DNA of 64,000 nt from Panacibacter ginsenosidivorans (GTDB lineage: Bacteria > Bacteroidota > Bacteroidia > Chitinophagales > Chitinophagaceae). Under the pieces are notes generated by a model. It saw only the letters and a program-made list of their open reading frames with translations. It had not been told where the DNA came from and did no database searches. Shown piece after piece: positions 19,984 to 51,168 of the stretch. The DNA is taken from contig NZ_CP042435.1 of the NCBI RefSeq assembly GCF_007971225.1, positions 5,025,501 to 5,089,500 of the forward strand, given 5' to 3'. Positions within the stretch are counted from its first letter, which is position 1. Each line of letters opens with the position of its first letter. Position numbers and translations under genes: made by a program.

Positions 19984-20003
19984 GTACAAGAGTGCGACGC
20001 AAC
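19984..20003 (-). repeat. Dispersed repeat, single right arm
   Basis: A perfect copy of the reverse unit GTACAAGAGTGCGACGCAAC, followed by the common tail GAAAGCTAAAT and by GGTACAAAAAA. Confidence 0.75.
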
Positions 20004-20520
20004 GAAAGCTAAATAGTGTTACAGATGTTCGGTACAAAAAATTCAATTCTTAATGACTGCTAAAATTTAACTGTTGCGGTACTTGCTGTGCAACAACCGC
20101 AAATTATTTTGAAAAACATAAAAGATTGCTGCAAAATTATTGTGGTATTCCACTTCATTCATTCGCTCCTTCATTCCATACTTCCATTCCGTCGCTCTCT
20201 CATGAAGCCCAATACCAGGATGTTTAAAAATTATTGCAATAGATTATTGCAAACCTGAATTGCAATCACAGATATATCAGGCTGTATTGTCTTTTGTAAA
20301 ATCAATGGATAAAAAGGCAGCGAAGCTTGCGGCTGTCATTGTTGTATGATTAAATAAAAGCTGCCAAAAGACTACGGCATAAACACAACTCCTTACGCAC
20401 AAAGCCATCATTTATTCCGTTTCCTTTTGGCTTAAATACAGCCGCAGTTCTTAATGCTTTCTTTTTTCCATTTTTTCTTTTACAAAATATTTTTTTCATC
20501 AACAGGCAAAATGCAACATC
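20004..20520. other. 517-bp non-coding stretch before the mobilisation genes
   Basis: No convincing gene is visible on either strand. The stretch is very AT-rich with scattered short pyrimidine runs (TTCATTCATTCGCTCC) and a GCGAAGCTTGC near-palindrome at about 20318. It probably holds the promoter of the ssb-DUF932 group; I see no clear TTG-N19-TAnnTTTG match. Confidence 0.4.
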
Positions 20521-23790: not shown

Positions 23791-26616
23791 TTACTGAAAT
23801 AACCGACTCCTTTTGGAATGTTTTTCATTACACTCCAATATACTTTTGAAATCGATTTTTCTTTCTTTTAGATAATTCTGCACACCTTTATCATAAAGGA
23901 AGCATTTTATTAAAGAGCAACAATCATTATGTGTTGATGGAATAGGGTTATCGGGTTTATCTCCGCCGTTAAAAACTGTACCATTTAAGGTTTGTTCTCT
24001 TGTAAATGGAGTTCCTCTCAGGGTTACACCTTTTGCCAAAAATCTGCATATATAAATCCCGCTTATGCCAGCAGTAAAAGAATTTTCAAAAACGCCTGGT
24101 TCAACTTCATATAACCAAAGCGAAAATGAAGTGTTATCTGGTCTTCTGATTTCTACCTGAACTGAACTTCTTTTTTCTACCGGCAAACCGTATTCAGTAA
24201 GAATGGCACGTAAGGTTAAGGTTGCTCCAGGTTCAAGACTGTTTTGATGTATTGAGACATTCATTTTTAAATTGGAATAAGTATTCACTACAACAGAATA
24301 TCTTGCTCCATGTGTGGCAAAGGACTGACTCCGTTTTTGCGTCTCTCTTATTTTAGAAAGATACTTTTTATAATCATCATCATTTACGCACAGCACAACA
24401 TTCCAGGTACCTGCATGGTTTCCACTAGCAGCAGCAACAGGAAGATTGAATTTATAGTTTTTTGTTTTTTGTCCGGCAGCAAAATCAATACCATGACCAG
24501 CAGCATTTACCGGATCAATCCACAATCCTCCCGGTGTTTCTATAAACATATCTACTACAGGTGCATCTGTAATAAGTATCGCAGTCCCATCAATATCTGC
24601 TTCATTAAGCTGGAAGGGAATTTTTATTTTGTTACCGGGTGCAATATATCCATTGGGATCAAGCACTATATTATTATTTGTAACACCAGCAAGTATTTGA
24701 AGAAAATATTTGCTTAGCCTGAAAAAATCATCAATACTTGAACTTAAAATACCCGAAAGTAAAAGATAGCCGCCAGTGCCATTAGTTAGTGCTTTAAGTG
24801 CCCCGGTGTTAACCTGTGTTTCATTACCAAGACCAATTGCAAAAGTTCTGTTGTCTATCGACCCGGCTACATCAGCAATAGAAAGTGGTTGATTTTCCAA
24901 GCCATCAGTAAAAACAATAATTGCTTTTTGCTCATAGTCCGCAATTGGCACAGCGTTGATCACCGTTCTCGCCATTTGCAAGCCATCACCTACTGAAGTT
25001 GCACCGTTAATATTGGTATGATGAGCGGATACTGCATTTTTTGCCGCAATCCTGTTTGGATCAAATTGGCTATTGGTTGTGATTCTTGTAACAGGGAATC
25101 CAGGAAAAGTTGCGTCATTTACCGGATAAGCATCTGTATCAAATCTAATTAACCCAACTCCACTGTTAGCCGGAATTACTTCCATGAAAGCATCGGCTGC
25201 ATCTTTCAATACATCTATTCTATGTGCACCAGAAGTGCCTGCAGGATCATCCATACTGCCGGACTGATCCAATGCAAGCATAACAGCCACCCTTGGTCGG
25301 ACAATAGCATTTGCTCTTAAAATAAAAGTAAAAGTCTGTCCGCTTTCCACGCATTCAAAAGTAACTGAACCATCAGGTACTGCCACATTCGCTGCACCAG
25401 CAGTAAAAGCAAGCCAGATACGCGCTTCCACATAAGGCTCTAAAACGTGAGAAACATTTACTGTACCGGATAAAGGTTGAAGAATGGAAAAAGGAGCTGC
25501 AGGGTTACCCCCTGGCTGCACCCGAATGGTTGTACCTACACAACTGTAAACCTTGAAACTTGCTGCTCTTACTGCTGTATCGCCAGATGGTATATCATTA
25601 AAGTTTATTACAGGTGGTGTACCCGCATTCTTAACTTCAACAATCGGAATGTTATTGAAATTTGTATCATAACAAGGAGGGAAAATAATAGAAGGATGTT
25701 TATAGGTATGAGGAATTCCCTCGTTTTCAGGGGCAGACCAAGGTCTCGTGAAATGGGTCACACCAAATTCATCCTCTGAGAAGCCTGAAGACCATGGCTC
25801 TATGTTGTGATTTACATTTTGAATATGGTCTAAAACCGGAACGTCAAGATTTGATTCTGCCCCGTATATCTGGTCAGGATCCAGTCGTCCAGGATGTGCA
25901 GGATCAGTTTGCCATCTTGCAAATAAGCGATCCACATTTGAATGAAGTAAAAAGACAAAAGGATCTCTGAAAGAAATATGGGCGCCACCCATGTTCACAA
26001 AGCCATGTGCCCTGTTATGGGCGCTTTCCATTGCAAGACGCATAGTTGGATAATCTCCGCCGTTAACAATATTGTTATTGTCATTTGTTATTGATTCAGG
26101 GCCACTTCCTAAACCTCCAACAATCCTGAAAACGTCCGCTGGTGCATCAGCAGGATTGCCTGTTACATCCCTGTCATTTGATGTTCCGGGAACATAATAA
26201 CCTGCGCTTAACCATGGCTCACCAATTGAGCCGTTAGAAGAGCCCATTAACGACGATGTAAATAAATTAAGATTGCCTGTTGTTCCTCCACCGAGGTTCG
26301 CATTGGGAATATTTCTTGGGTCTTGCGTCCAATCCCAGTAATGCAATGATAACTGAGGATTAATCTCACGAAGCATCGCCTCAAACCTGTTTACTATCTC
26401 CCTATGCCATGGAATAAATTCCGGACCACCATGTACATGTGTTGCCTGGTGTATTTCATCCTGTTTAAACCACCAGGAAACACCACCGGGATTGGGGTCG
26501 TTCCTACTTCCCGGAAAATAACGTTGATTTAATTGTTTGATCGCGTCGATCAGCAAAGCTCTTTCGCTTGGATCGACATGCGCAATGTTTCTGCGGATTC
26601 CATCACCGAGTGCCAT
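23791..26616 (-). CDS. Tyrosinase-vWA fusion protein
   Basis: A 941-residue protein with no signal peptide. Residues about 10-240 form a tyrosinase (type-3 di-copper) domain: CuA site with H62-GGPEFIPW-H71 (H56 or H60 the likely third ligand) and CuB site with H200, H204 and H225 (HNRAH, then DPFVFLLHSNVDRLFARW). A beta-rich linker of about 200 residues follows. A von Willebrand A domain starts at about 442 with the MIDAS motif DQSGS (450-454) and VFTDGLENQP further on. The last 280 residues are beta-rich and end in a Cys pair. It would hydroxylate or oxidise phenols; the vWA part suggests binding to a protein or surface. It is the only leftward gene among the mobilisation genes and looks like cargo. 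Confidence 0.85.
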   Translation of the reverse strand: MALGDGIRRNIAHVDPSERALLIDAIKQLNQRYFPGSRNDPNPGGVSWWFKQDEIHQATHVHGGPEFIPWHREIVNRFEAMLREINPQLSLHYWDWTQDPRNIPNANLGGGTTGNLNLFTSSLMGSSNGSIGEPWLSAGYYVPGTSNDRDVTGNPADAPADVFRIVGGLGSGPESITNDNNNIVNGGDYPTMRLAMESAHNRAHGFVNMGGAHISFRDPFVFLLHSNVDRLFARWQTDPAHPGRLDPDQIYGAESNLDVPVLDHIQNVNHNIEPWSSGFSEDEFGVTHFTRPWSAPENEGIPHTYKHPSIIFPPCYDTNFNNIPIVEVKNAGTPPVINFNDIPSGDTAVRAASFKVYSCVGTTIRVQPGGNPAAPFSILQPLSGTVNVSHVLEPYVEARIWLAFTAGAANVAVPDGSVTFECVESGQTFTFILRANAIVRPRVAVMLALDQSGSMDDPAGTSGAHRIDVLKDAADAFMEVIPANSGVGLIRFDTDAYPVNDATFPGFPVTRITTNSQFDPNRIAAKNAVSAHHTNINGATSVGDGLQMARTVINAVPIADYEQKAIIVFTDGLENQPLSIADVAGSIDNRTFAIGLGNETQVNTGALKALTNGTGGYLLLSGILSSSIDDFFRLSKYFLQILAGVTNNNIVLDPNGYIAPGNKIKIPFQLNEADIDGTAILITDAPVVDMFIETPGGLWIDPVNAAGHGIDFAAGQKTKNYKFNLPVAAASGNHAGTWNVVLCVNDDDYKKYLSKIRETQKRSQSFATHGARYSVVVNTYSNLKMNVSIHQNSLEPGATLTLRAILTEYGLPVEKRSSVQVEIRRPDNTSFSLWLYEVEPGVFENSFTAGISGIYICRFLAKGVTLRGTPFTREQTLNGTVFNGGDKPDNPIPSTHNDCCSLIKCFLYDKGVQNYLKERKIDFKSILECNEKHSKRSRLFQ

Positions 26617-29075: not shown

Positions 29076-29140
29076 AATGTGAGGTGTATGAAAATTATAA
29101 AAATCTTTTGTACCAGGCTTTATCACTTTTATCACCGCCT

Positions 29141-29211
29141 GTTGCGTCGCACACTTATACATCCGGAATTTTATTGAGCAATGAGAAGAACGTTTAAGAG
29201 TGCGACGCAAC
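29141..29211. repeat. Dispersed palindromic repeat, paired arms
   Basis: Left arm GTTGCGTCGCACACTTATAC (29141-29160) and right arm GTTTAAGAGTGCGACGCAAC (29192-29211) face each other across 31 bp. Outer flanks TTTTGTACCAGGC and CTTGGGTTCATAAAAA are also roughly inverted. It lies between the relaxase and coupling-protein genes. Confidence 0.78.
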
Positions 29212-29273
29212 GAATGCTTAATTGAAAAGCAAAACTTGGGTTCATAAAAATTTACAATCTTTAAAATATTGTT

Positions 29274-31232
29274 ATGTCGGGTACAGGTGAAAATGAAATG
29301 GGGCTGAGGAAAATACTTGATTTTACAAGGCTTGCGGCTATCGCTATTTTGATACTGCATTTTTACTACTACTGTTATGCAGCTTTTAGAGAATGGAATT
29401 TTACAGCAAGCATCAGCGACCGGCTGATGATGAATATAGCGAATACTGGTTTATTCAATCACTGGGTTACTTCAAAAATAATTGCATTGGGGTTGTTGGT
29501 TATTTCGCTAATCGGTGCAATGGGTAAAAAGGATGAAAAGCTGCGTTTGAAAAGCATTCTCTCATGGATAGCTATTGGGTTACTTTTTTATTTCGCAAGC
29601 AATTTGTTTTTTAGCCTTACTGTTGATAACACAACAATTGCTGTTGCTTACATGACAGGTAGTGGTTTGGGATTTTTATTGGTATTGAGTAATGGCACTA
29701 TGTTGAGCAGGTTGATAAAGGTGAGTTTGTCAAAAGATATTTTTAATGACCTGAATGAAACATTTCCGCAGGAAGAAAGGCTGATCAATAATGAGTATTC
29801 CATTAATCTTCCGGCTCGCTATAAACTGAAAGAAAAAGTAAAAAGAAGCTGGATCAATATTATCAATCCATTTCGTGGCTTGTTAGTGATTGGAAGTCCG
29901 GGTGCAGGTAAGAGTTGGTTTGTGATACAGCATGTGATGAAGCAGCATATTGAGAAAGGCTTTGCTATGTTCATTTACGATTTTAAATATGATGACCTAT
30001 CCAAGATTGCTTACAACTGTTTGCAATTGTATAAAGACAAGTATGCGGTTGTGCCGTCATTTTATGTGATCAATTTTGATAACCTTTCTGTAACCCATCG
30101 CTGCAACCCATTAGAGCCCTCTGCGATGCATGATATAACAGATGCGACAGAATCTGCCAGAACAATTTTATTAGGGCTTAACAGGGAGTGGATCAACAAG
30201 CAAGGGGATTTCTTTGTAGAATCACCTATCAATTTTGTTACCGCCGTCATTTGGTTTTTGCGAAAGTATAATGATGGAAAATATTGTACGCTGCCACATG
30301 TAATAGAGTTAATGCAGGCAGATTATGATGAACTCTTTCCCGTACTAAACACGCAACCTGAAATCGAAGTGTTGGTAAACCCCTTTGTTACGGCATATCA
30401 AAATGATGCAATGGAACAACTGGAAGGCCAGGTTGCATCTGCAAAAATTGGTATGGCAAGGCTTGCTTCGCCACAATTGTATTGGGTATTATCGGGCAAT
30501 GATTTTACACTTGATATAAATAACCCTGCGCATCCTAAAATAGTTTGTATGGGTAACAATCCGGAGAAGCAACAGATCTATGGCGCAGTGTTATCGTTGT
30601 ATGTTTCAAGATTGGTAAGAATGGTGAACAAAAAAGGAAAGCAAAAATGCAGCCTGGTGTTTGATGAATTTCCGACTATCTTTTTTAATCATATTGATTC
30701 ATTGATAGCAACGGCGAGAAGCAATAAAGTTGCTACCACTTTAGCGATGCAGGATTTTAGCCAGTTAAAAAAAGATTATGGCAAAGAACAGGCAGATGTG
30801 ATTGTAAACATTACTGGTAATATTATCAGTGGTCAGGTGATGGGTGAAACATCTAAACTTTTATCTGAACGTTTTGGTAAAATTATGCAGGACAGGGAAA
30901 GTGTTTCTATTAACCGCAATGATACGTCCATCAGTCGCTCCACACAATTAGATGCCGCTATACCGGCATCTAAGATCGCAGCCTTATCATCGGGTGAATT
31001 TGTGGGAATGGTTGCTGATGATCCGCATGAAAAGATTAAACTTAAAATGTTTAATGCAGAGATTATTAATGATACTGATAAGCTGAACGATGAAGTAGGC
31101 AGATATAAAGAGATACCTGTTGTATCAAATGTTACGCGACAACAGGTGATGGATAATTATTACCAGGTGAAGATGGAAGTGAAGCGGTTGATTGGGGAAG
31201 AGGTGGAGAGGTTGAAGTTAAGTACTCATTGA
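29274..31232 (+). CDS. Type IV coupling protein (TraG/VirD4-like, Bacteroidota MobC type)
   Basis: A 652-residue membrane ATPase. N-terminal membrane segments (about 15-130) precede the P-loop GSPGAGKS near 207. The Walker B region is CSLVFDEFPTIFF near 462, followed by the RSNKVATTLAMQDFSQLKKDYG segment typical of coupling proteins. It links the relaxosome to a type IV secretion channel. With mobC and the relaxase it makes this a mobilisable element; no mating-pore genes are seen in the window. Its stop at 31230 overlaps the promoter of the next operon. Confidence 0.88.
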   Translation: MSGTGENEMGLRKILDFTRLAAIAILILHFYYYCYAAFREWNFTASISDRLMMNIANTGLFNHWVTSKIIALGLLVISLIGAMGKKDEKLRLKSILSWIAIGLLFYFASNLFFSLTVDNTTIAVAYMTGSGLGFLLVLSNGTMLSRLIKVSLSKDIFNDLNETFPQEERLINNEYSINLPARYKLKEKVKRSWINIINPFRGLLVIGSPGAGKSWFVIQHVMKQHIEKGFAMFIYDFKYDDLSKIAYNCLQLYKDKYAVVPSFYVINFDNLSVTHRCNPLEPSAMHDITDATESARTILLGLNREWINKQGDFFVESPINFVTAVIWFLRKYNDGKYCTLPHVIELMQADYDELFPVLNTQPEIEVLVNPFVTAYQNDAMEQLEGQVASAKIGMARLASPQLYWVLSGNDFTLDINNPAHPKIVCMGNNPEKQQIYGAVLSLYVSRLVRMVNKKGKQKCSLVFDEFPTIFFNHIDSLIATARSNKVATTLAMQDFSQLKKDYGKEQADVIVNITGNIISGQVMGETSKLLSERFGKIMQDRESVSINRNDTSISRSTQLDAAIPASKIAALSSGEFVGMVADDPHEKIKLKMFNAEIINDTDKLNDEVGRYKEIPVVSNVTRQQVMDNYYQVKMEVKRLIGEEVERLKLSTH

Positions 31233-31241
31233 CTATATTTG
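31212..31241 (+). promoter_or_regulatory. Promoter of the thyA-methyltransferase operon
   Basis: TTG at 31212-31214, exactly 19 bp, then TATATTTG at 31234-31241: a full match to the Bacteroidota consensus. It overlaps the last codons of the coupling-protein gene and leaves a leader of about 60 nt before thyA. Confidence 0.7.
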
Positions 31242-31305
31242 TTTTTACTCAAAAACCGCAGAACAATATTTGGTTAAAATCTGGTAATCAACACAAGCAA
31301 TTTTT

Positions 31306-32100
31306 ATGAACCAATATGAAGACCTTCTCCAATTCGTTTTAGAAAAAGGAAATAAGAAAACAGATCGAACTGGGGTGGGTACCCTTAGTATTTTTGGCTA
31401 TCAAATGCGATTTGATTTGCAAGAAGGTTTTCCACTAATAACAACAAAAAAACTTCATCTAAAATCAATAATCTACGAACTTCTTTGGTTTCTAAAAGGT
31501 GAAACTAACATTAAGTATTTGAAGGAGCACGGGGTGACGATTTGGGATGAATGGGCCGATGAGAATGGAGAATTGGGTCCTATTTATGGGTACCAATGGC
31601 GTAAATGGCCTGCCCCAGATGGAAGACATATCGATCAAATAAGTAATGCAATACATTTAATTAAAACCAATCCAGATTCAAGAAGGATTATAGTCAGCGC
31701 CTGGAATGTAGCAGATATAGAAAAAATGTCGCTACCTGCTTGCCATGCTTTTTTTCAATTTTATGTTGCTGAAGGAAAATTATCATGTCACATGTATCAG
31801 AGAAGTGCTGATCTTTTTCTTGGTGTGCCTTTTAATATTGCATCCTTTGCATTGCTAACCATGATGACTGCACAGGTTTGTGATTTGGAAGTAGGTGAAT
31901 TGGTGCATTCTTTTGGAGATACCCATATTTACAACAATCATATAGAACAAGTGAAACTTCAATTGGAAAGGGAACCACGGCCTTACCCTAAAATGGTTAT
32001 TAATAAAGAAATAAAAAATATATTTGATTTTAAGTATGAGGATTTTAAACTAGAGGGATATAACCCTCATTCCTCGATAAAAGCACCAATTGCAGTATAA
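31306..32100 (+). CDS. thyA: Thymidylate synthase
   Basis: A complete 264-residue ThyA that methylates dUMP to dTMP using methylene-tetrahydrofolate. Landmarks: [17 protein letters not shown] at the start, the nucleophile Cys in [10 protein letters not shown] near 146, phosphate-binding [34 protein letters not shown] and the C-terminal APIAV. All catalytic residues appear present; LPPCH is changed to LPACH. In Bacteroidota chromosomes thyA is usually next to folA, but here it heads an operon of conflict-type genes and overlaps the next gene by one base (TAATG). It may supply dTMP during attack or transfer, feed the neighbouring PRTase-like enzyme, or be a decoy or spare enzyme; these are inferences. 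Confidence 0.95.
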
Positions 32101-33035
32101 TGAGTGTTCCAAGCATACCGGATATGAAGTTATATTACTCTAATAAAAGCACATTAATAAGAGTAATATGCCGAACAAATCAATGGAGTGGGTTAAAAGA
32201 ATCAAATTTAACTGACTGGCTGCAGGGAAATTTTAAAGACCCTGAAGGCAAATATCTGGCTGTTAAAATTCTATTGCATAGTCTTTACTACAGTGAAGAA
32301 AATCTAATTGAACTATTACGACATGGCATTTATCATGAAATAATTGGCGAGGAAATAAAAAGCAACCTGATTGCAAGTAACAATATTTTTGTACCTCAAT
32401 CAGTTACTGAAGCTGAGGTACGGCAGAAGGTTGATAAAATTTTATTTGTTCCACTTTTGGATAAGAACAGGCCTAATGAAAGCGGCAATGCTATTATAAG
32501 ATATCTAACTACAAAACTTTCTATCAGCCCATCAAATACAATTTTTCATTTTAATATTAAGGATAGTGATCTTGATAATATTGAAAAAATAATCATTGTT
32601 GATGATTGTATTGGCAGCGGGGATCAGTTGAATACTTTCTGGAACACAACATTCCTTGATGTAAAAAATAAAGCGTTAGCGAAAGGGGTAGACATTTACT
32701 ACCTGGCTTTGATTGGTTATGAAAATCAAGTCCTGGATTTACAACTCACTGGAGATTTGGTTGGCTTGAGAGTAGTAATATGTGACAAACTTGAGGAACG
32801 TAACAAGATATATTCAAGTCAGAATATCATTTGGAACAGTGATGAAGAAATGAACTTCGCAATTACTTATTTTGATGACATTGGTAGCAAATATGGTGTG
32901 CCACGAGTGGGTTATGCCGGACTGGATTTTTCTTTATTCATGCATAATTCCGTACCAGACTGGACTCTGCCTATATTCTGGACAGAAAATTATGACTGGA
33001 AGCCTTTATTGAAACGAAAAAACTCAAATTCATAA
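32100..33035 (+). CDS. Phosphoribosyltransferase-like protein (PRTase-CE type)
   Basis: A 311-residue soluble protein. Residues 110-180 have the type I phosphoribosyltransferase core: ILFVPLLDKN, a loop, and the PRPP-binding motif IIIVDDCIGSGDQ (165-176, with Ser for the usual Thr). A helical N-terminal region and a beta-rich C-terminal region (WTLPIFWTENYDWKPL) surround it. The layout resembles the PRTase-like domains described in predicted conflict systems rather than a salvage enzyme; there is no recognisable base-binding hood. It is translationally coupled to thyA and to the ATPase downstream (one-base overlaps at both ends). Substrate unknown. Confidence 0.65.
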   Translation: MSVPSIPDMKLYYSNKSTLIRVICRTNQWSGLKESNLTDWLQGNFKDPEGKYLAVKILLHSLYYSEENLIELLRHGIYHEIIGEEIKSNLIASNNIFVPQSVTEAEVRQKVDKILFVPLLDKNRPNESGNAIIRYLTTKLSISPSNTIFHFNIKDSDLDNIEKIIIVDDCIGSGDQLNTFWNTTFLDVKNKALAKGVDIYYLALIGYENQVLDLQLTGDLVGLRVVICDKLEERNKIYSSQNIIWNSDEEMNFAITYFDDIGSKYGVPRVGYAGLDFSLFMHNSVPDWTLPIFWTENYDWKPLLKRKNSNS

Positions 33036-34975
33036 TGCGAGCAAAGAACCCATTTAACAGAAACAGAGCCGAGCAGATGGGAGAAGATACCTGGCGGTAT
33101 TTTGTGAAAGAACCATTTACAGATCTGTTGTCTGAAAAGCCACTGATTTTTGAAGGAAGCCGAGGGTGTGGGAAAACGATGTTTTTTTTGTGCAACTCCT
33201 GGAAAGAAAAGTTCGCTGAATACGAGACCCAAGGAATTAACGTTACAGAAATATTTTCCAAAACTGGTTTAATTGGGTTTTACTATAAGGTTGACGGTAA
33301 GTTTGTTGGGAAAAATTTATCAAAAAAAGGCGTTGAAGAATGGGAATGGCAATCTGTATTCAATACCTATTTTAATATTATTATTTGTAAAGATGTCCTT
33401 AATTTTTTAAGCCATTGTATCGATAGAGGGTATATCGCAAAAGATGAAATTTCAACCCTAGTTAAAAGAATAAACGGCAAGCTGGAATTTAACTGTGACG
33501 TAGAAAGCCTGGAAAAGACATATAATCATTTTGATGTTGTATTGGATGAGATCGAAGGTTTCTCCAATGACCCTGAGAAAAAGAAACCACTTGGATTACA
33601 TGCAGGCACCCTCATTGCAACAGCTATTGAGGAAATCCGAAAAATTCAGTTATTTAATGAAGCAAGGTTCCATGTTTTTATTGATGAATTTGAAGAGTTG
33701 AATGAAGCTCAACAAAAGCAATTGAATACTTTGCTAAAACAGAGCAAGTATTGGCTTGTATATGATTTTGGAGTAAAGACCAAAGGAAGGCATACCGAAG
33801 AAACAATATCGGGAGAAATAATTCAAGAGCCTGATGATTATTTACACTACTACCCCGAAATTGATAGTTATGAAAGAAAAGAGGAATACGAGAGATTATT
33901 AGTTTCTATTTGCTCAAAGCGAATTAAGGACTATTTACCTGAAGCATTAGTTTCTAATGACGATTTCCTTGATATAAGATTTTATCTGAAAGATTATGGC
34001 AAAGAAATAGAGCTGAAGGAATTTGAGCAATCTTCTAAAATGCCTTCTATACGAACAAGATTAAAACGATTAATAGAAGAAGATAATGCACACCGACATT
34101 ACTTTGACAAAGATGAAATGAAGGAGGTTTACAACGTTCTTGTGAACTGTACACCTGACCTGGTAAGAATGCATATTTCCATCTTGAATCGCCGTAATAA
34201 AGTTTCAATTAAGGAACTCTTTGAAAATGCAAAGAGCAACACAAAAGTTTATCAAAGCTGGAAGCATAATACCGGATTCGCTACTTATTTTCTCCTTTGT
34301 AAGGAACTGGATATTATAAAAAAATATCACGGCCTGTCGACCTTTTCAATGTTGTCGTCTGGAGTGATAAGGAGCTTTCTTGAGATTTGTGAAAGCGCCT
34401 TCGATTATGCATTCAGCGAGGGCTTTACATTTGACAATCCAAGGAGTCTAACTATTGACGAGCAAACAAATGCTGCACACTATGTAAGTCAATCCAAAGT
34501 ATCAAAAATAGAGGGCTTTGTTCCAGATGGCATGCACTTAAAACGTTTTATGTTAGCAATTGGAAAAATATTTTATTTAAAACATACTGACCCCGATGCA
34601 ACTTTGGGAGAGCCAGAGCCCAATCATTTTTATACAAAACCTCTGGAATTAAAAGCACTTTCGCCAGAGGCATTACGGATTTTGGAAAATGCCATACTGC
34701 ACAATGTGCTTCAGTTTGATTTACCTACGAAGGAAAAAAACACAGAGGCTATTGAAACAACAGATTACCATATAAATCACATTTATTGCCCTTATTTTAA
34801 AATATCACATAGGAGAAAAAGGAAGATATTTCTTGAACCCGCTGAGTTAAAAACTTTATTAATTGGCACTACAGGTGAAGTAGAAAAGGTTGTCAGATCA
34901 ATTGTCAATAAAAACACTGAAAGTATCCAGGGAAAATTAAACTTTTATGGAGATGATTTATCAGGAGAAATTTAA
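33035..34975 (+). CDS. ORC/Cdc6-like P-loop ATPase
   Basis: A 646-residue ATPase without signal or membrane segments. Walker A is GSRGCGKT (41-48), preceded by LIFE; Walker B is VFIDEFEEL (214-222). The short N-terminus (NPFNRNRAEQMGEDTWRYFV) and the AAA-type core resemble ORC-CDC6-like ATPases seen in bacterial conflict operons. The C-terminal 350 residues are helical (winged-helix-like segments around 360-420) and contain HIYCPYFKISHRRKRK, which could bind DNA. It overlaps the previous gene by one base and the next by 29 bp. A sensor or switch role is inferred. Confidence 0.65.
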   Translation: MRAKNPFNRNRAEQMGEDTWRYFVKEPFTDLLSEKPLIFEGSRGCGKTMFFLCNSWKEKFAEYETQGINVTEIFSKTGLIGFYYKVDGKFVGKNLSKKGVEEWEWQSVFNTYFNIIICKDVLNFLSHCIDRGYIAKDEISTLVKRINGKLEFNCDVESLEKTYNHFDVVLDEIEGFSNDPEKKKPLGLHAGTLIATAIEEIRKIQLFNEARFHVFIDEFEELNEAQQKQLNTLLKQSKYWLVYDFGVKTKGRHTEETISGEIIQEPDDYLHYYPEIDSYERKEEYERLLVSICSKRIKDYLPEALVSNDDFLDIRFYLKDYGKEIELKEFEQSSKMPSIRTRLKRLIEEDNAHRHYFDKDEMKEVYNVLVNCTPDLVRMHISILNRRNKVSIKELFENAKSNTKVYQSWKHNTGFATYFLLCKELDIIKKYHGLSTFSMLSSGVIRSFLEICESAFDYAFSEGFTFDNPRSLTIDEQTNAAHYVSQSKVSKIEGFVPDGMHLKRFMLAIGKIFYLKHTDPDATLGEPEPNHFYTKPLELKALSPEALRILENAILHNVLQFDLPTKEKNTEAIETTDYHINHIYCPYFKISHRRKRKIFLEPAELKTLLIGTTGEVEKVVRSIVNKNTESIQGKLNFYGDDLSGEI

Positions 34976-35915
34976 TCTCGATCATAGCAGCGCTCCGTAT
35001 TTTTCCCAGCAAGTTGATGTACTTATATGTGGATTAAGGGCAGATAGTGAAAAAGACGACCGCTATAATCATGTAAAACGAAGCTTGAAAGATTTTAAGG
35101 GCAAGGTGATTTATTTTAGTACTGATGAAGATGCAAATACCTTAAACTATGAAATCAGAAAAGATAATGGTGATATAATTGACAAACAAGACGGATTGAA
35201 CTTAATTCCCGACTTAAGAAAATTTTTAAAACAAAATAAGTTTGATGCAAACAGTGTGTGTATTGATATTACCTGCCTAGCACAGCCTATCTTGTTTCTA
35301 CTTATCAAAATATTTCTTACAGAAATCAAGCCCAAAAAACTGTTTGCTGCATATACTGAACCTAAAAAGTATAAAAAGAATCACCATCTTATTACTGAAG
35401 ATGAGGAGTTTGAACTGTATGAAAAAATTATTGGGTGTAACTATTCTGTACCGGGGTTTGCCAAGATTAACCGTGAGGAAAAAGAAATGCTTATAGCTCC
35501 TTTTGGGTTTGAACGACAACGTTTGATTTCAATTTTTGAAAGTGTTGAACCTAAGGGTGGCCTTATTCCAATATTAGGTTTCCCATCGTTTGTGCCTGGT
35601 TGGAATTTGACAGCCCTTTATATGAACTATAAAGTGATTTCTGATGCTGAATCTGAACAGCAGATCAGATTTTGTGAAGCATCCAGCCCCTTTGGCCTAT
35701 ACAGGTTATTGAAAGAACTTTATGATCTCTATGGAAGTGATTACAAACTACTAATTGCACCTTTGGGCACCAGGCCGCATTCTTTAGGTGCTGCTTTATT
35801 TGCAACAAAGCATAAGCAATGTCATTTAATTTACGATTTCCCTGTAGAAAAACTATTCAGGAGCGAAGAGATATTAAAAGCGGATATTTATAACTTAACT
35901 ACTTATATAGAATAG
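34947..35915 (+). CDS. Unrecognised protein with two Rossmann-like glycine-loop motifs
   Basis: A 322-residue soluble protein; starts at 34947 and 34953 are both possible. I do not recognise the family. The N-terminal half begins with a strand VDVLICGL and an IDIT motif (106-109) before a hydrophobic helix. The C-terminal half has LIAPFGFER (182-190) and LLIAPLGTRPHSLGAALFA (268-286), a strand-loop-helix resembling the GTK loop of CARF-like nucleotide sensors. It might sense a nucleotide or a nucleotide-derived signal, which would suit the PRTase-like neighbour, but this is speculative. It overlaps the ATPase gene by 29 bp and ends 4 bp before the methyltransferase. Confidence 0.5.
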   Translation: MEMIYQEKFNLDHSSAPYFSQQVDVLICGLRADSEKDDRYNHVKRSLKDFKGKVIYFSTDEDANTLNYEIRKDNGDIIDKQDGLNLIPDLRKFLKQNKFDANSVCIDITCLAQPILFLLIKIFLTEIKPKKLFAAYTEPKKYKKNHHLITEDEEFELYEKIIGCNYSVPGFAKINREEKEMLIAPFGFERQRLISIFESVEPKGGLIPILGFPSFVPGWNLTALYMNYKVISDAESEQQIRFCEASSPFGLYRLLKELYDLYGSDYKLLIAPLGTRPHSLGAALFATKHKQCHLIYDFPVEKLFRSEEILKADIYNLTTYIE

Positions 35916-35919
35916 AATA

Positions 35920-37110
35920 ATGGCATATCTAGCACAATATTTTACAAAAGATCACTTTTCAAACCTGCTCATTCAAAATATTGATTTCAGGGGGCCGAAA
36001 GTAATCGTGGACTTAGGGATAGGTGACGGGGCTTTGACAGTGGCAGCTATTAAGAAGTGGAGACATGCTAAGTACTATGGTGTTGATGTAGACAAGGAAC
36101 GGCTTGATAGCTTAAATGAAAGACTACCAAATGTAAGGTTACACAATATTAATTCGCTGGATATATCTCTAGGAAAGAGTATTAAAATAAAAATGGGTAC
36201 TGTGGATATCGCCATATGTAACCCCCCCTATTTGAATCTTAAAAAAAGATCGAAGTACAAAACAATATTGAGAAATGCGGGATTAAACAATTCTGTTAAT
36301 ATACCCTGTTATACATCTGACCTAATTTTTTTGGCGCAAAATATTAACCTGTTAAGAGATAAAGGGACATTAGGAATTATCGTTCCGGAAGGCATTGTTT
36401 GCGGACATAATTTTAATTTACTAAGGAAGGATCTGCTTGAAAGGCATGACCTGAAAATGGTAATTCAGTTAGAGCCAAAAATTTTCAATAAAACTGAAGC
36501 AAAAACTTACATACTTATTTTAGACAAAGGTCAAACCAGGACCAGAACAGTACAATTATGCAAAGCCGACCTTAATGGGAAAATTGAAAAACGAATTAAG
36601 ATACAAAAAACTGATTTGATAGAACGTATGGATTATAAATACCATGCCTCTGCAAATAAAAATATTAAAGGGAAAACCCTAAAAGAATTGGGAGTTACGA
36701 TTCGAAGGGGTAATTATTCTAAAAATGAACTTGAAAAAGCAAAACAAATATACTTTCACACTACCAGTAATTGGAGCATTAACGGCCTATCGTTGCGAAA
36801 TACTCATTATAAACTTAATAAAGAACCTGTGATTGCTAAGAAGGGAGATATTCTGATTGGTAGGGTTGGAAGAAATTGTATTGACAAAATAACTTTTGTA
36901 AAAAGCGGTAAAATTGCAGTAACTGACTGCGTTTACAAGGTGTCAATTTCAGAGGAGTTTAGGGAAGCGGTATATAACAGGCTAAAAAGTGAGGAGGGCA
37001 AAATATATTTACAGAAGGTTATTCATGGAGTATGTGCACAAGTGCTAAGCAAAAAAGATCTTGAAAACTTTAAAGTTTTTGTATATAAGCGTCATGTTCA
37101 TAAAAAATAA
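35920..37110 (+). CDS. Adenine-specific DNA methyltransferase with fused HsdS-like recognition domain
   Basis: A 396-residue class I SAM-dependent methyltransferase. Motif I is VIVDLGIGDGAL (28-39), the acidic SAM contact follows in YGVDVDKE (53-60), and the catalytic N6-adenine motif is NPPY (101-104). After GTLGIIVPEGIV the C-terminal half changes to a type I specificity-like target-recognition domain (KTLKELGVTIRRG, then KKGDILIGRVGRN, IAVTDCVYKV and LSKKDLENFKV). No nuclease domain is fused or adjacent in the operon, so it could mark self DNA for the ATPase/PRTase-like module. It is the last gene of the operon. Confidence 0.8.
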   Translation: MAYLAQYFTKDHFSNLLIQNIDFRGPKVIVDLGIGDGALTVAAIKKWRHAKYYGVDVDKERLDSLNERLPNVRLHNINSLDISLGKSIKIKMGTVDIAICNPPYLNLKKRSKYKTILRNAGLNNSVNIPCYTSDLIFLAQNINLLRDKGTLGIIVPEGIVCGHNFNLLRKDLLERHDLKMVIQLEPKIFNKTEAKTYILILDKGQTRTRTVQLCKADLNGKIEKRIKIQKTDLIERMDYKYHASANKNIKGKTLKELGVTIRRGNYSKNELEKAKQIYFHTTSNWSINGLSLRNTHYKLNKEPVIAKKGDILIGRVGRNCIDKITFVKSGKIAVTDCVYKVSISEEFREAVYNRLKSEEGKIYLQKVIHGVCAQVLSKKDLENFKVFVYKRHVHKK

Positions 37111-37165: not shown

Positions 37166-37180
37166 GGATTGCGACGCAAC
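37166..37180 (-). repeat. Dispersed repeat, partial right arm
   Basis: GGATTGCGACGCAAC keeps the end of the unit. Flanks CATTCCTTCC and GATGATGCCA...CTTAAGCTGGTATCATAAAAA resemble the outer ends of other copies. Confidence 0.6.
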
Positions 37181-37218
37181 GATGATGCCATGAAAAACTT
37201 AAGCTGGTATCATAAAAA

Positions 37219-38304
37219 TTATTCTAACAGCTTACACAACTCATTAGCGTCAGGTAATATACCTTTCATTTGAATTGGGGTTTGCTTTGATGTTTTATAA
37301 GTAGCTACGCCCATCGCTTTGTCTATACTCTTTACTGAAAACTCAACCACTGTATTATTTTTTTCTTTACACAATACAATTCCAATACTGGAATTTTCAT
37401 GAGACAGTTTTATTTTTTCATCCAGTACATTCAGATAAAAATTTAACTGCCCTGCATATTCCGGTTTAAACTTTCCTTTCTTTAATTCAAATGCCACAAG
37501 GCACTGCAGGTTACGGTTGAAGAATAACAGATCGATAAAAAATTCTTCGCCATCTAATTCTACCCTGTATTGATTGCCAATAAAAGAAAAGCCTTTGCCC
37601 ATACGAAGAATGAAATCGCGGATTTCTGCTACCACTTTACTTTCTATATTTCTTTCATCATCACCGTCCTGTATATAAATAAAGTCAAACAAATATTCAT
37701 CTTTGAAAACCTGCAGGGCTGATGGCTTTAAATCTTCGCTTAAGGTTTTAGAAAAATTATTGGGTAGCTTTCCCTGTTTTTGAAAAAGACCTGCATCTAT
37801 TTGGTGCTCCGTTACGCTGACCGGCCAGAATTGTGCAGCAGTTTCAAGAATGTAAAACATTCTTTCTTCAAAGGATTTGCATTTGCTTAAAATAACAATA
37901 TGGTGGCTGAAACTTATTGACGCAAATGCGCTTAACATCTCTGCATTCATTTGTGCCGCCGCTGACGGCACAAATAAGCTTTCCGTTGATTTTTCCAATT
38001 GTGCCGTTACCGACGGCACAATTACCAACTGATGATATTCCAAATAAAATTGTTTCATTTTCATTAAGTTTCTGCGGGAGAAACCTTTTAGCCCGGGCAA
38101 TAATTTTTGAAGGTCTATTGATATTTGGTCAACCACTTTGGCGCCCCATTTCTCCGCATCAATCTTTTCTGTAAGCATCTTACCCGTTTTAAAGTACAGC
38201 ATTAATTGTTCACGGTTTGCCAACCTTGCAGCCTGGTAGCGACTGTTGATAATACTTTGCTTTAATTCAGTTATCAAATGGAGATATTGTTTTGATGGTT
38301 TCAT
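37219..38304 (-). CDS. DUF1016 (YhcG-like) PDDEXK nuclease
   Basis: A 361-residue protein. The N-terminal DUF1016 half (LITELKQSIINSRYQAARLANREQLMLYF, then KGFSRRNLMKMKQFY) is helical. The C-terminal half is the PDDEXK nuclease fold: FIGNQYRVELDGEEFFIDLLFFNRNLQCLVAFELKKG, with Asp and the E-x-K pair in place. Between them lie two copies of a VPSxxAQ insert encoded by DNA palindromes. Members of this family occur near restriction-modification and mobile genes. Here it converges with the methyltransferase operon and sits beside the integrase, but it is not part of that operon. Confidence 0.85.
   Translation of the reverse strand: MKPSKQYLHLITELKQSIINSRYQAARLANREQLMLYFKTGKMLTEKIDAEKWGAKVVDQISIDLQKLLPGLKGFSRRNLMKMKQFYLEYHQLVIVPSVTAQLEKSTESLFVPSAAAQMNAEMLSAFASISFSHHIVILSKCKSFEERMFYILETAAQFWPVSVTEHQIDAGLFQKQGKLPNNFSKTLSEDLKPSALQVFKDEYLFDFIYIQDGDDERNIESKVVAEIRDFILRMGKGFSFIGNQYRVELDGEEFFIDLLFFNRNLQCLVAFELKKGKFKPEYAGQLNFYLNVLDEKIKLSHENSSIGIVLCKEKNNTVVEFSVKSIDKAMGVATYKTSKQTPIQMKGILPDANELCKLLE
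37951..38021. repeat. Two in-frame palindromes inside the DUF1016 gene
   Basis: TTGTGCCG, 7 nt, CGGCACAA at 37951-37973 and again at 37999-38021. On the coding strand they translate to VPSAAAQ and VPSVTAQ. They lie at the junction of the two domains, where an insertion would be tolerated. Confidence 0.7.
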
Positions 38305-46275: not shown

Positions 46276-46445
46276 GTTGTGTCACTCACTTGTGCGTTCT
46301 GAATTTTATGCAACTTTTTAACATAGTGAATCAGTTAATAAAAATTTAAAGGCATAATTCTATATTTTTCACAATTGCTGTTCTGTTTATGTTGCGTCGC
46401 TATAAAGCCGCATAATTACTCAACAGTACAAGTGTGCGACGCAAC
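46276..46445. repeat. Dispersed palindromic repeats (two types)
   Basis: At 46276-46294 is the variant arm GTTGTGTCACTCACTTGTG. At 46391-46400 is GTTGCGTCGC, paired with a right arm GTACAAGTGTGCGACGCAAC at 46426-46445, followed by AAAAGCTTAATAATG and GCCGGGCTAC. They lie in the 482-bp gap between the kinase and the second uspA gene, which holds no gene. Confidence 0.75.
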
Positions 46446-46508
46446 AAAAGCTTAATAATGTTACCATTGCCGGGCTACACAAATAAAAATGTCTCTGCTT
46501 TTTTCTAT

Positions 46509-51059: not shown

Positions 51060-51079
51060 GTACAAGAGTGCGACGCAAC
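51060..51079 (-). repeat. Dispersed repeat, single right arm
   Basis: A perfect GTACAAGAGTGCGACGCAAC followed by AAAAGCTTAATA and GCCTGGTTCAAAAAAA. It lies 90 bp upstream of the permease start. Confidence 0.75.
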
Positions 51080-51168
51080 AAAAGCTTAATATACACTATG
51101 AGGCCTGGTTCAAAAAAATATAATTTTACAGAAGATTGCTTCTGTAATTGGTATTACAATTTAAAAAG

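Follow-up and report, generated by a model that had tools for sequence, protein, structure and literature searches.

A candidate mobile defence operon in Panacibacter ginsenosidivorans and the thymidylate-pathway genes that recur beside its core

We analyzed a 64,000-nucleotide stretch of the Panacibacter ginsenosidivorans genome (G000:C1:5025501-5089500; hereafter the window, in whose own positions its features are given) that carries a five-gene operon encoding the thymidylate synthase (TS) ThyA, a phosphoribosyltransferase (PRTase) of the PRTase-CE type, an ORC-CDC6-like ATPase, a tandem CARF/SAVED-like protein, and a DNA methyltransferase. The PRTase, ATPase, and CARF-type genes form a core that recurs in other genomes with a methyltransferase gene close by, and beside 16 of 56 loci with the PRTase there is a gene for a thymidylate-pathway enzyme (in one case a MazG-like protein), with four unrelated families (PF00303, PF02511, PF08761, and PF00692) serving this one pathway. 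With confidence just short of even, we read this as a mobile anti-phage or anti-plasmid system with a fixed core and an interchangeable thymidylate module that is predicted to protect the host pool. The system's mechanism probably involves thymidylate chemistry.

Conservation of the core and of its thymidylate neighbors

Loci were gathered from plasmid and phage records, viral contigs, related genomes, and a scan of a genome collection (at least 34 loci, an incomplete sample biased toward ATPases with the motifs used in the scan). A first count gave 50 loci with the ORC-type ATPase, and a later set of seven raised this to 57. The PRTase is present in 56 of the 57 (49/50 first, 7/7 later; missing in L066), as is the CARF protein (49/50 and 7/7; missing in L079, which ends at a contig edge), and a methyltransferase lies within 3 kb in 48/50 first loci and 55/57 overall (missing in L060 and L079). 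Five loci with an ORC-family match and no PRTase match (L037-L041) were excluded; including them changes the PRTase tally to 56/62. Also excluded were PRTase-CE genes without a flagged ORC-family ATPase (L114, L116-L118, L120, L140, and L141), a locus with a weak CARF match and another ATPase-like protein (L119), and one known by annotation only that is the same system as L034 (L143). Near-duplicate pairs were retained (L034/L043, L047/L076, L049/L050, and L063/L077, with ORC proteins at least 98% identical, and L178/L184, with pieces 99.6-100% identical). In the genome-collection scan the core extends across Bacteroidota, Proteobacteria, Planctomycetota, Actinomycetota, and archaeal contigs. 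The operon exceeds a chance assembly, since the PRTase-ORC-CARF genes and a methyltransferase next to them recur in dozens of distant loci, and the initial annotation, which had treated the genes as one conserved module, is borne out for the PRTase-ORC-CARF core and its adjacent methyltransferase.

Among Bacteroidota the system is rare, found in 3/396 genomes of the order including the window's own. A four-gene version in the order methyltransferase-PRTase-ATPase-CARF was seen in L034, L043, and L143, near an IncFII repA in L034 and L143, and ATPase matches number 147 among plasmid records, 129 of them from Klebsiella. Of 5,426 Escherichia coli genomes, 4 contain the Klebsiella-type operon, each time on a plasmid of a strain named C600 or J53, and these four carriers are probably laboratory transconjugants. 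A DNA search of the E. coli genomes with the window ATPase gene gave no match, a class-wide CARF search gave no new locus, searches of phage records returned the same two Acinetobacter records every time, and of four further viral scans, three returned only contigs that were in the sample before and one returned none.

Parts of the system vary around the core. The methyltransferase is of N6 type in the window and, by similarity, in most other loci. Pfam assigns the N6_N4 type to L036 and L046, and similarity to L036 extends it to L139 and the later set; L054 and L073 have the C5-cytosine type. In two Bacteroidota loci outside the 57, calcineurin-like phosphoesterases with a wHTH-Calcineurin_assc domain occupy the PRTase position in otherwise similar ATPase-CARF operons (L037, 6804-7937; L038, 6692-7867). 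Because the methyltransferase class varies and a calcineurin-like protein can replace the PRTase, the ATPase-CARF pair seems to be the invariant component, with effector and marker exchangeable. Locus L066 (5171-6926) is a variant that has a 946-aa ORC-type ATPase and, in place of the PRTase, two proteins without a Pfam match, possibly another effector.

The operon's thyA encodes a thymidylate synthase by every comparison made: it scores 425 bits against PF00303 (cutoff, 24.3), matches solved thymidylate synthases over its full length (best E, 3.7e-131), and has all 12 residues checked (R21, E58, W80, R126, R127, C146, R166, S167, D169, N177, H207, and Y209), which we take to be key residues of these enzymes. 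A role as modified-base synthase was ruled out, since N177 and the other checked residues are presumably of the thymidylate synthase type. A second thyA copy lies elsewhere in the same genome (G000:C1:2041400-2042188). We searched the 49 PRTase loci of the first set with eight thymidylate-pathway queries and found a match in 10, always on the strand of the core and with its nearest end no more than 1.5 kb off. The window and L139 have ThyA, L046 and L073 have ThyX, L033, L035, and L072 have a dimeric dUTPase, L059 and L062 have a trimeric dUTPase, and L069 has a PRA-PH/MazG-like protein. The same queries had zero matches in the distal flanks (beyond 2.5 kb; 364.6 kb in all, with 241.5 kb searched closer in); for ten matches spread evenly over the flanks, the chance that all would fall near is about 1e-4. 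In the window as well as in L035 and L179 the thymidylate gene overlaps its neighbor, and in L033 the gap is 2 bp.

The later set consists of plasmid loci found solely by similarity to the L139 ATPase, of which 7 of 10 records were taken; a second Bradyrhizobium record (H128) and two Moraxella records already in the sample (H131 and H132) were left out. ThyX is present in 6/7 of these loci. Annotation places its gene next to the system in Sinorhizobium meliloti (strain L6-AK89, L179), Bradyrhizobium, and Rhizobium johnstonii, and comparison of open reading frames (ORFs) adds L178, L182, and L183; in the Moraxella locus L181 no thymidylate enzyme was found. The ATPase reads as separate ORFs in L178, L183, and L184, and therefore some copies may be decayed. 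Near rhizobial copies we also observed TIR-domain and SIR2-family genes (L180, 1-358; L178 and L184, from about 8900), neighbors of a kind found in defense islands. The overall tally of 16/56 PRTase loci comprises 2 with ThyA, 8 with the nonhomologous ThyX, 5 with a dUTPase, and 1 with the MazG-like protein, and becomes 15/51 when one of each near-duplicate pair is removed. The initial annotation had allowed that thyA might accompany the other four genes only here; instead, ThyA is found in a second lineage, and ThyX and dUTPases take its place elsewhere.

A second line of evidence, independent of the distal-flank control, comes from copy number in related genomes. A ThyA match is present in 56/59 of them, and two full copies occur only in P. 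ginsenosidivorans and G663, both of which carry a ThyA-bearing system; G998, whose system lacks ThyA, has a single thyA, and G1028 has two partial matches on separate contigs. In a tree built from the 30 best-scoring loci of the 59-genome scan plus those of a further search, a 100/100 branch joins the window and L139 ThyAs to the exclusion of 32 others. These two system ThyAs are 77.7% identical to each other, versus 72.3% (window) and 65.3% (L139) to their own host copies, and their cores sit on different branches. The simplest reading of these sequences is that a system-associated ThyA lineage passed between divergent cores. In the PRTase tree (50 rows; L043, L050, L055, L066, L076, L077, and L079 absent), 12 loci form a clade with a bootstrap of 100; the window is not among them, and every member has an N6_N4- or C5-type methyltransferase. 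Nine of the 12 have a thymidylate synthase (eight ThyX, one ThyA). Presence or absence of a thymidylate gene requires 8 changes on this tree and 8 on the tree of ORC proteins (49 rows, omitting L079 and the later set), at least 5 of the latter forced by well-supported branches.

These results bear on whether the thymidylate genes are simply cargo. Such genes would be common on mobile elements and phages and would land beside defense genes at random; many system loci are indeed on plasmids or islands, and most jumbo phages carry TS or ThyX (PMC7824862, in the part of the paper available). We consider this hardly credible, given the 10 loci with near matches against none in the distal flanks, the frequency of ThyX in the later set, and the gene overlaps and 2-bp gap described above. 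Chance proximity of thyA itself was likewise rejected on recurrence, the flank control, copy counts, and the identity and tree of the ThyAs.

Possible roles of the thymidylate module

From the conservation of the core, its intact motifs, its folds, and the recurrence of thymidylate enzymes, all of them observed, we infer a possible defense function, order of events, substrate, and protective role. The methyltransferase would mark host DNA, and the ORC/CDC6-like ATPase would assemble on invading or unmarked DNA, with the tandem CARF/SAVED-like protein gating activation through nucleotide binding. The target that the PRTase effector then attacks would most likely be a uridine- or thymidine-type nucleotide (or phosphoribosyl pyrophosphate [PRPP]), and DNA replication would be starved. 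In the carrier cell, the co-encoded ThyA, ThyX, or dUTPase would hold deoxythymidine triphosphate (dTTP) high and deoxyuridine triphosphate (dUTP) low; basal effector activity would thereby be tolerated and the cell could recover, so that the enzyme would parallel an immunity protein at the metabolic level. The thymidylate-pathway enzymes have in common that they raise dTTP and lower dUTP. TS and ThyX have the same activity without being homologous (PMC7824862, from the portion at hand), and because the recruited enzymes come from unrelated families, a metabolic role is likelier than that of a physical guard. Uridine and thymidine nucleotides are the natural candidate pool because a PRTase-fold effector adjoins thymidylate enzymes. 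The more specific proposal, that a uracil-PRTase-like effector attacks nucleotides of the deoxyuridine or deoxythymidine monophosphate (dUMP/dTMP) type and that the system's own thymidylate synthase or dUTPase is a metabolic immunity module replaced several times by unrelated pathway enzymes, we hold to be possible and rather doubtful. The combination of nucleotide chemistry, an ATPase, a nucleotide sensor, and a methyltransferase fits a defense system, and the initial annotation's impression of such a system from gene content is consistent with the PRTase, ATPase, CARF-type sensor, and methyltransferase identified here.

PRTase-CE is the candidate effector, predicted from this analysis to attack a nucleotide in an immune response. 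It scores 174.4 bits against PF24390 (curated cutoff, 27), has the type I PRTase fold with an intact PRPP loop, and keeps S128, D168, D169, and G174, which are invariant among 32 sequences. In a fold search with its structure model (predicted local distance difference test [pLDDT], 89.5), uracil PRTases make up the first five rows and 8/11 top rows (Z, 10.4 to 9.9), and Foldseek also ranks a uracil PRTase first (2.4e-4), ahead of an orotate PRTase (1.7e-3). The ATPase scores 308.9 bits against PF24389 (cutoff, 27), and its Walker A residues G41, G44, G46, K47, and T48 and Walker B residues D217-E220 are invariant in 6 sequences. The initial annotation had called the fourth protein an unknown sensor-like protein; its sensor type stands, and its identity is corrected to a tandem CARF/SAVED-like protein of the CARF6 family. 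Its model (pLDDT, 83) has a CARF-type fold in both halves: the C-terminal CARF domain aligns with Csm6 (Z, 13.3; 132 residues; root-mean-square deviation [rmsd], 3.9), 6sce, a nuclease with two CARF domains, aligns over both halves (Z, 11.6; 224 residues; rmsd, 4.3), and SAVED proteins match at a Z of about 8. Foldseek alone placed KaiC first, with low TM-scores, and neither the CARF profile nor the ATPase profile found a relevant match among PDB sequences. A conserved GTKP motif, present as GTRP in the window protein, presumably resembles the CARF ligand loop. A shared fold does not establish the function of the PRTase or of this fourth protein.

Several observations weigh against this overall reading. 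The rank of uracil PRTases is weak evidence because orotate PRTases (Z, 9.6) and purine PRTases (Z, 9.5) come within 1 Z of the best score of 10.4 and count as tied, and in a comparison of the PRTase profile with PDB sequences uracil PRTase came first at an E of 0.11 at best, below significance. A producer of a CARF ligand could not be recognized among the five genes of the operon. A thymidylate gene is optional and not a universal requirement, since none was found beside 40/56 PRTase loci; the proteobacterial clade of the Klebsiella-type systems had none. On the ORC tree the thymidylate label is scattered and no more clustered than in shuffles (8 changes versus a shuffled mean of 9.2), and deep placements in this tree are unsure because of long branches. 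The distal-flank control is imperfect, as the queries were near-core genes first noticed by eye and divergent dUTPases could be missed. Nor is the later set seven independent trials, since L139 itself carries ThyA, L178 and L184 are nearly the same, and 6/7 loci are rhizobial. Among individual loci, the dUTPase of L062 lies 127 bp upstream, thyX of L180 is on the strand opposite to the core, and L069 has a PRA-PH/MazG-like protein without a known substrate.

The module might instead supply a signal or substrate. The thymidylate enzyme would make a thymidine nucleotide, or lower a uridine nucleotide, that is read by the CARF/SAVED-like protein or consumed by the PRTase, and disturbance of the pool by a phage would be the trigger. 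A metabolite pool is what the recruited enzymes have in common, the operon has a nucleotide-sensor fold and no recognizable cyclase, and sensing of dTTP has a precedent in Clover, where dTTP activates the effector and p3diT restrains it (PMC12265719, in the part available). The 40/56 loci beside which no such enzyme was found count against supply, as do related genomes with one thyA, which make dTMP already. We consider signal or substrate supply unlikely and rank it second, behind carrier-cell protection.

Phages commonly block or commandeer the host's thymidylate metabolism, and a divergent second ThyA, ThyX, or dUTPase could supply the host during infection as co-selected cargo without mechanistic coupling. 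The system ThyA differs from the host copy (72.3% identity), and the nonhomologous ThyX would evade an inhibitor of ThyA; however, the same ThyA lineage beside two distant cores and the presence of a thymidylate synthase in 9/12 of one PRTase clade suggest tighter coupling, and such a backup role appears improbable. We think it very improbable that the module serves to keep uracil out of DNA, with the sensor or methyltransferase reading uracil-DNA as foreign and the enzyme averting self-attack by lowering dUTP. dUTPases and thymidylate synthases do have this effect in common, and phages with uracil in place of thymine are described as lacking both kinds of enzyme (PMC7824862, same portion). 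HhH-GPD base-excision glycosylase genes accompany both archaeal-contig systems with C5-cytosine methyltransferases (L073, 5213-5881; L054, 6981-7622), which might be taken in favor of uracil exclusion; however, no uracil-recognizing domain was found, and the glycosylases fit T:G repair beside C5 methylation more simply, a role they plausibly serve.

If the carrier-cell protection that we favor is correct, the module would suggest how a host lives with a nucleotide-depleting defense. The swap for unrelated enzymes of one pathway is strong natural evidence that a metabolic step, rather than a particular protein, matters to a defense system. It points at the substrate of the uncharacterized PRTase-CE effector family and would explain why some mobile elements carry unexpected second copies of thyA, thyX, and dut.

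The operon and its surroundings in the window

The five ORFs lie on the forward strand with successive overlaps of 1, 1, and 29 bp and then a 4-bp gap before the methyltransferase gene (Table 1), in exact agreement with the packing first noted, and profile matches uphold the original naming of ThyA, the PRTase, the ORC/Cdc6 ATPase, and the methyltransferase. Residues 281-388 of the methyltransferase weakly resemble a type I specificity subunit (PADLOC, 4.9e-6). The promoter that the initial annotation placed ahead of the operon is present as a match of Bacteroidetes type and plausible by position only: the general pattern TTG-N19-TANNTTTG has 3 matches across the window versus 2.35 expected from shuffles, so that the match alone is at chance level and was dropped as independent evidence.

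Table 1. Window positions of the operon genes and neighboring features
Feature	Position	Strand	Match or remark
thyA, canonical full-length thymidylate synthase	31306..32100	+	PF00303, E 1.2e-127
PRTase-CE, predicted nucleotide-targeting effector	32100..33035	+	PF24390, 5.3e-51
ORC-CDC6-like AAA+ ATPase, Walker A GSRGCGKT, Walker B FIDEFEE	33035..34975	+	PF24389, 1e-91
Tandem CARF/SAVED-like sensor (CARF6)	34947..35915	+	PADLOC CARF6, 8.8e-44
N6-adenine-type DNA methyltransferase, NPPY motif, C-terminal recognition-like region	35920..37110	+	N6_Mtase PF02384, 1.1e-24; PADLOC MTase_II, 2.4e-76
Bacteroidetes-type promoter-like match TTG-N19-TATATTTG	31212..31241	+	Within end of mobC; 64 bp before thyA start
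YhcG/DUF1016 PD-(D/E)XK protein	37219-38304	-	PADLOC PDC-S02; adjoins operon
Interspersed repeat GTGCGACGCAAC...AAAGCTTAAT	19988-20041, 29196-29249, 46430-46483, 51064-51117; also 37167-37182		Between genes

The operon had been placed within a mobilizable element, and the window supports this with a relaxase (PF03432) and a tyrosine integrase (PF00589) by Pfam and, upstream of the operon, a MobC above and a MobB-like protein below the family cutoff. Downstream, on the opposite strand, are the YhcG/DUF1016 nuclease-like protein and the tyrosine integrase. YhcG/DUF1016 homologues within 2.5 kb of the core were also observed in L046, L077, and L142, for a total of 4/50 loci, and the protein is possibly an optional partner of the system. 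The interspersed repeat looks like an abundant REP-like (repetitive extragenic palindromic) element: its core pattern, with up to 2 mismatches, has 278 forward and 278 reverse matches in the whole genome and 0 with the reversed control, and at 29139-29213 the repeat is paired with its own inverse. Elsewhere in the window, the reverse strand encodes a 941-aa protein that combines a tyrosinase and a von Willebrand A domain (23791-26616).

Comparison with known systems

As in restriction-modification and BREX-like (bacteriophage exclusion) systems, a DNA methyltransferase is part of the present system, where it accompanies nearly every copy of the core, and ATPases of the ORC/CDC6 clade are present in BREX and Ssp systems (PMC12839542 and PMC10853773, in the parts available). 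Unlike restriction-modification, the operon has no nuclease family among its five proteins and a candidate effector with a PRTase fold; a restriction-modification reading was rejected for lack of a restriction nuclease. The fourth protein shares sequence family and fold with CARF6 and with the CARF/SAVED sensors of type III CRISPR and CBASS (cyclic oligonucleotide-based antiphage signaling system), from which the system differs in that its five operon genes include no recognizable cyclase, cas gene, or fused nuclease. No cas family was found among 18 window proteins scanned with Pfam (the window has 42 ORFs of at least 150 aa), and no CD-NTase family of CBASS was found in the five operon proteins.

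Similar in its nucleotide logic is Clover (CloA/CloB), whose anti-phage action likewise centers on thymidine nucleotides, with dTTP activating the effector and a thymidine dinucleotide restraining it (PMC12265719, accessible portion); in contrast, the five operon proteins include no CloA-type dNTPase or CloB-type nucleotidyltransferase family. DefensePredictor reports protection of E. coli by a unit that contains a thymidylate synthase domain and includes a PRTase among its validated systems (PMC13092281, as far as its available text goes). These units may overlap with the present system; a deoxynucleoside monophosphate (dNMP) kinase and a 5-hydroxymethyldeoxyuridine (5hmdU) kinase, also among the validated systems, may mean base modification and thus a different one (PMC13092281, same text).

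The initial annotation knew of no described system with ThyA as a component. This holds for the recurrent thymidylate module in the literature searched, most of it present in part and without the full text of Nicastro et al. 2023; the novelty does not extend to the core, whose families are already named. Because PRTase-CE, ORC-CDC6-like, and CARF6 families are in public libraries, the core is already known, as a prediction if not more. The PRTase-CE/ORC-CDC6-like conflict systems were reportedly named in Nicastro et al. 2023, whose theme is said to be exchangeable nucleotide-targeting effectors; that paper is not known to describe a recurring ThyA/ThyX/dUTPase module. The window proteins are clear members of PF24390 and PF24389, and in relatives of the window system calcineurin-like effectors replace the PRTase, much as in that reported theme.

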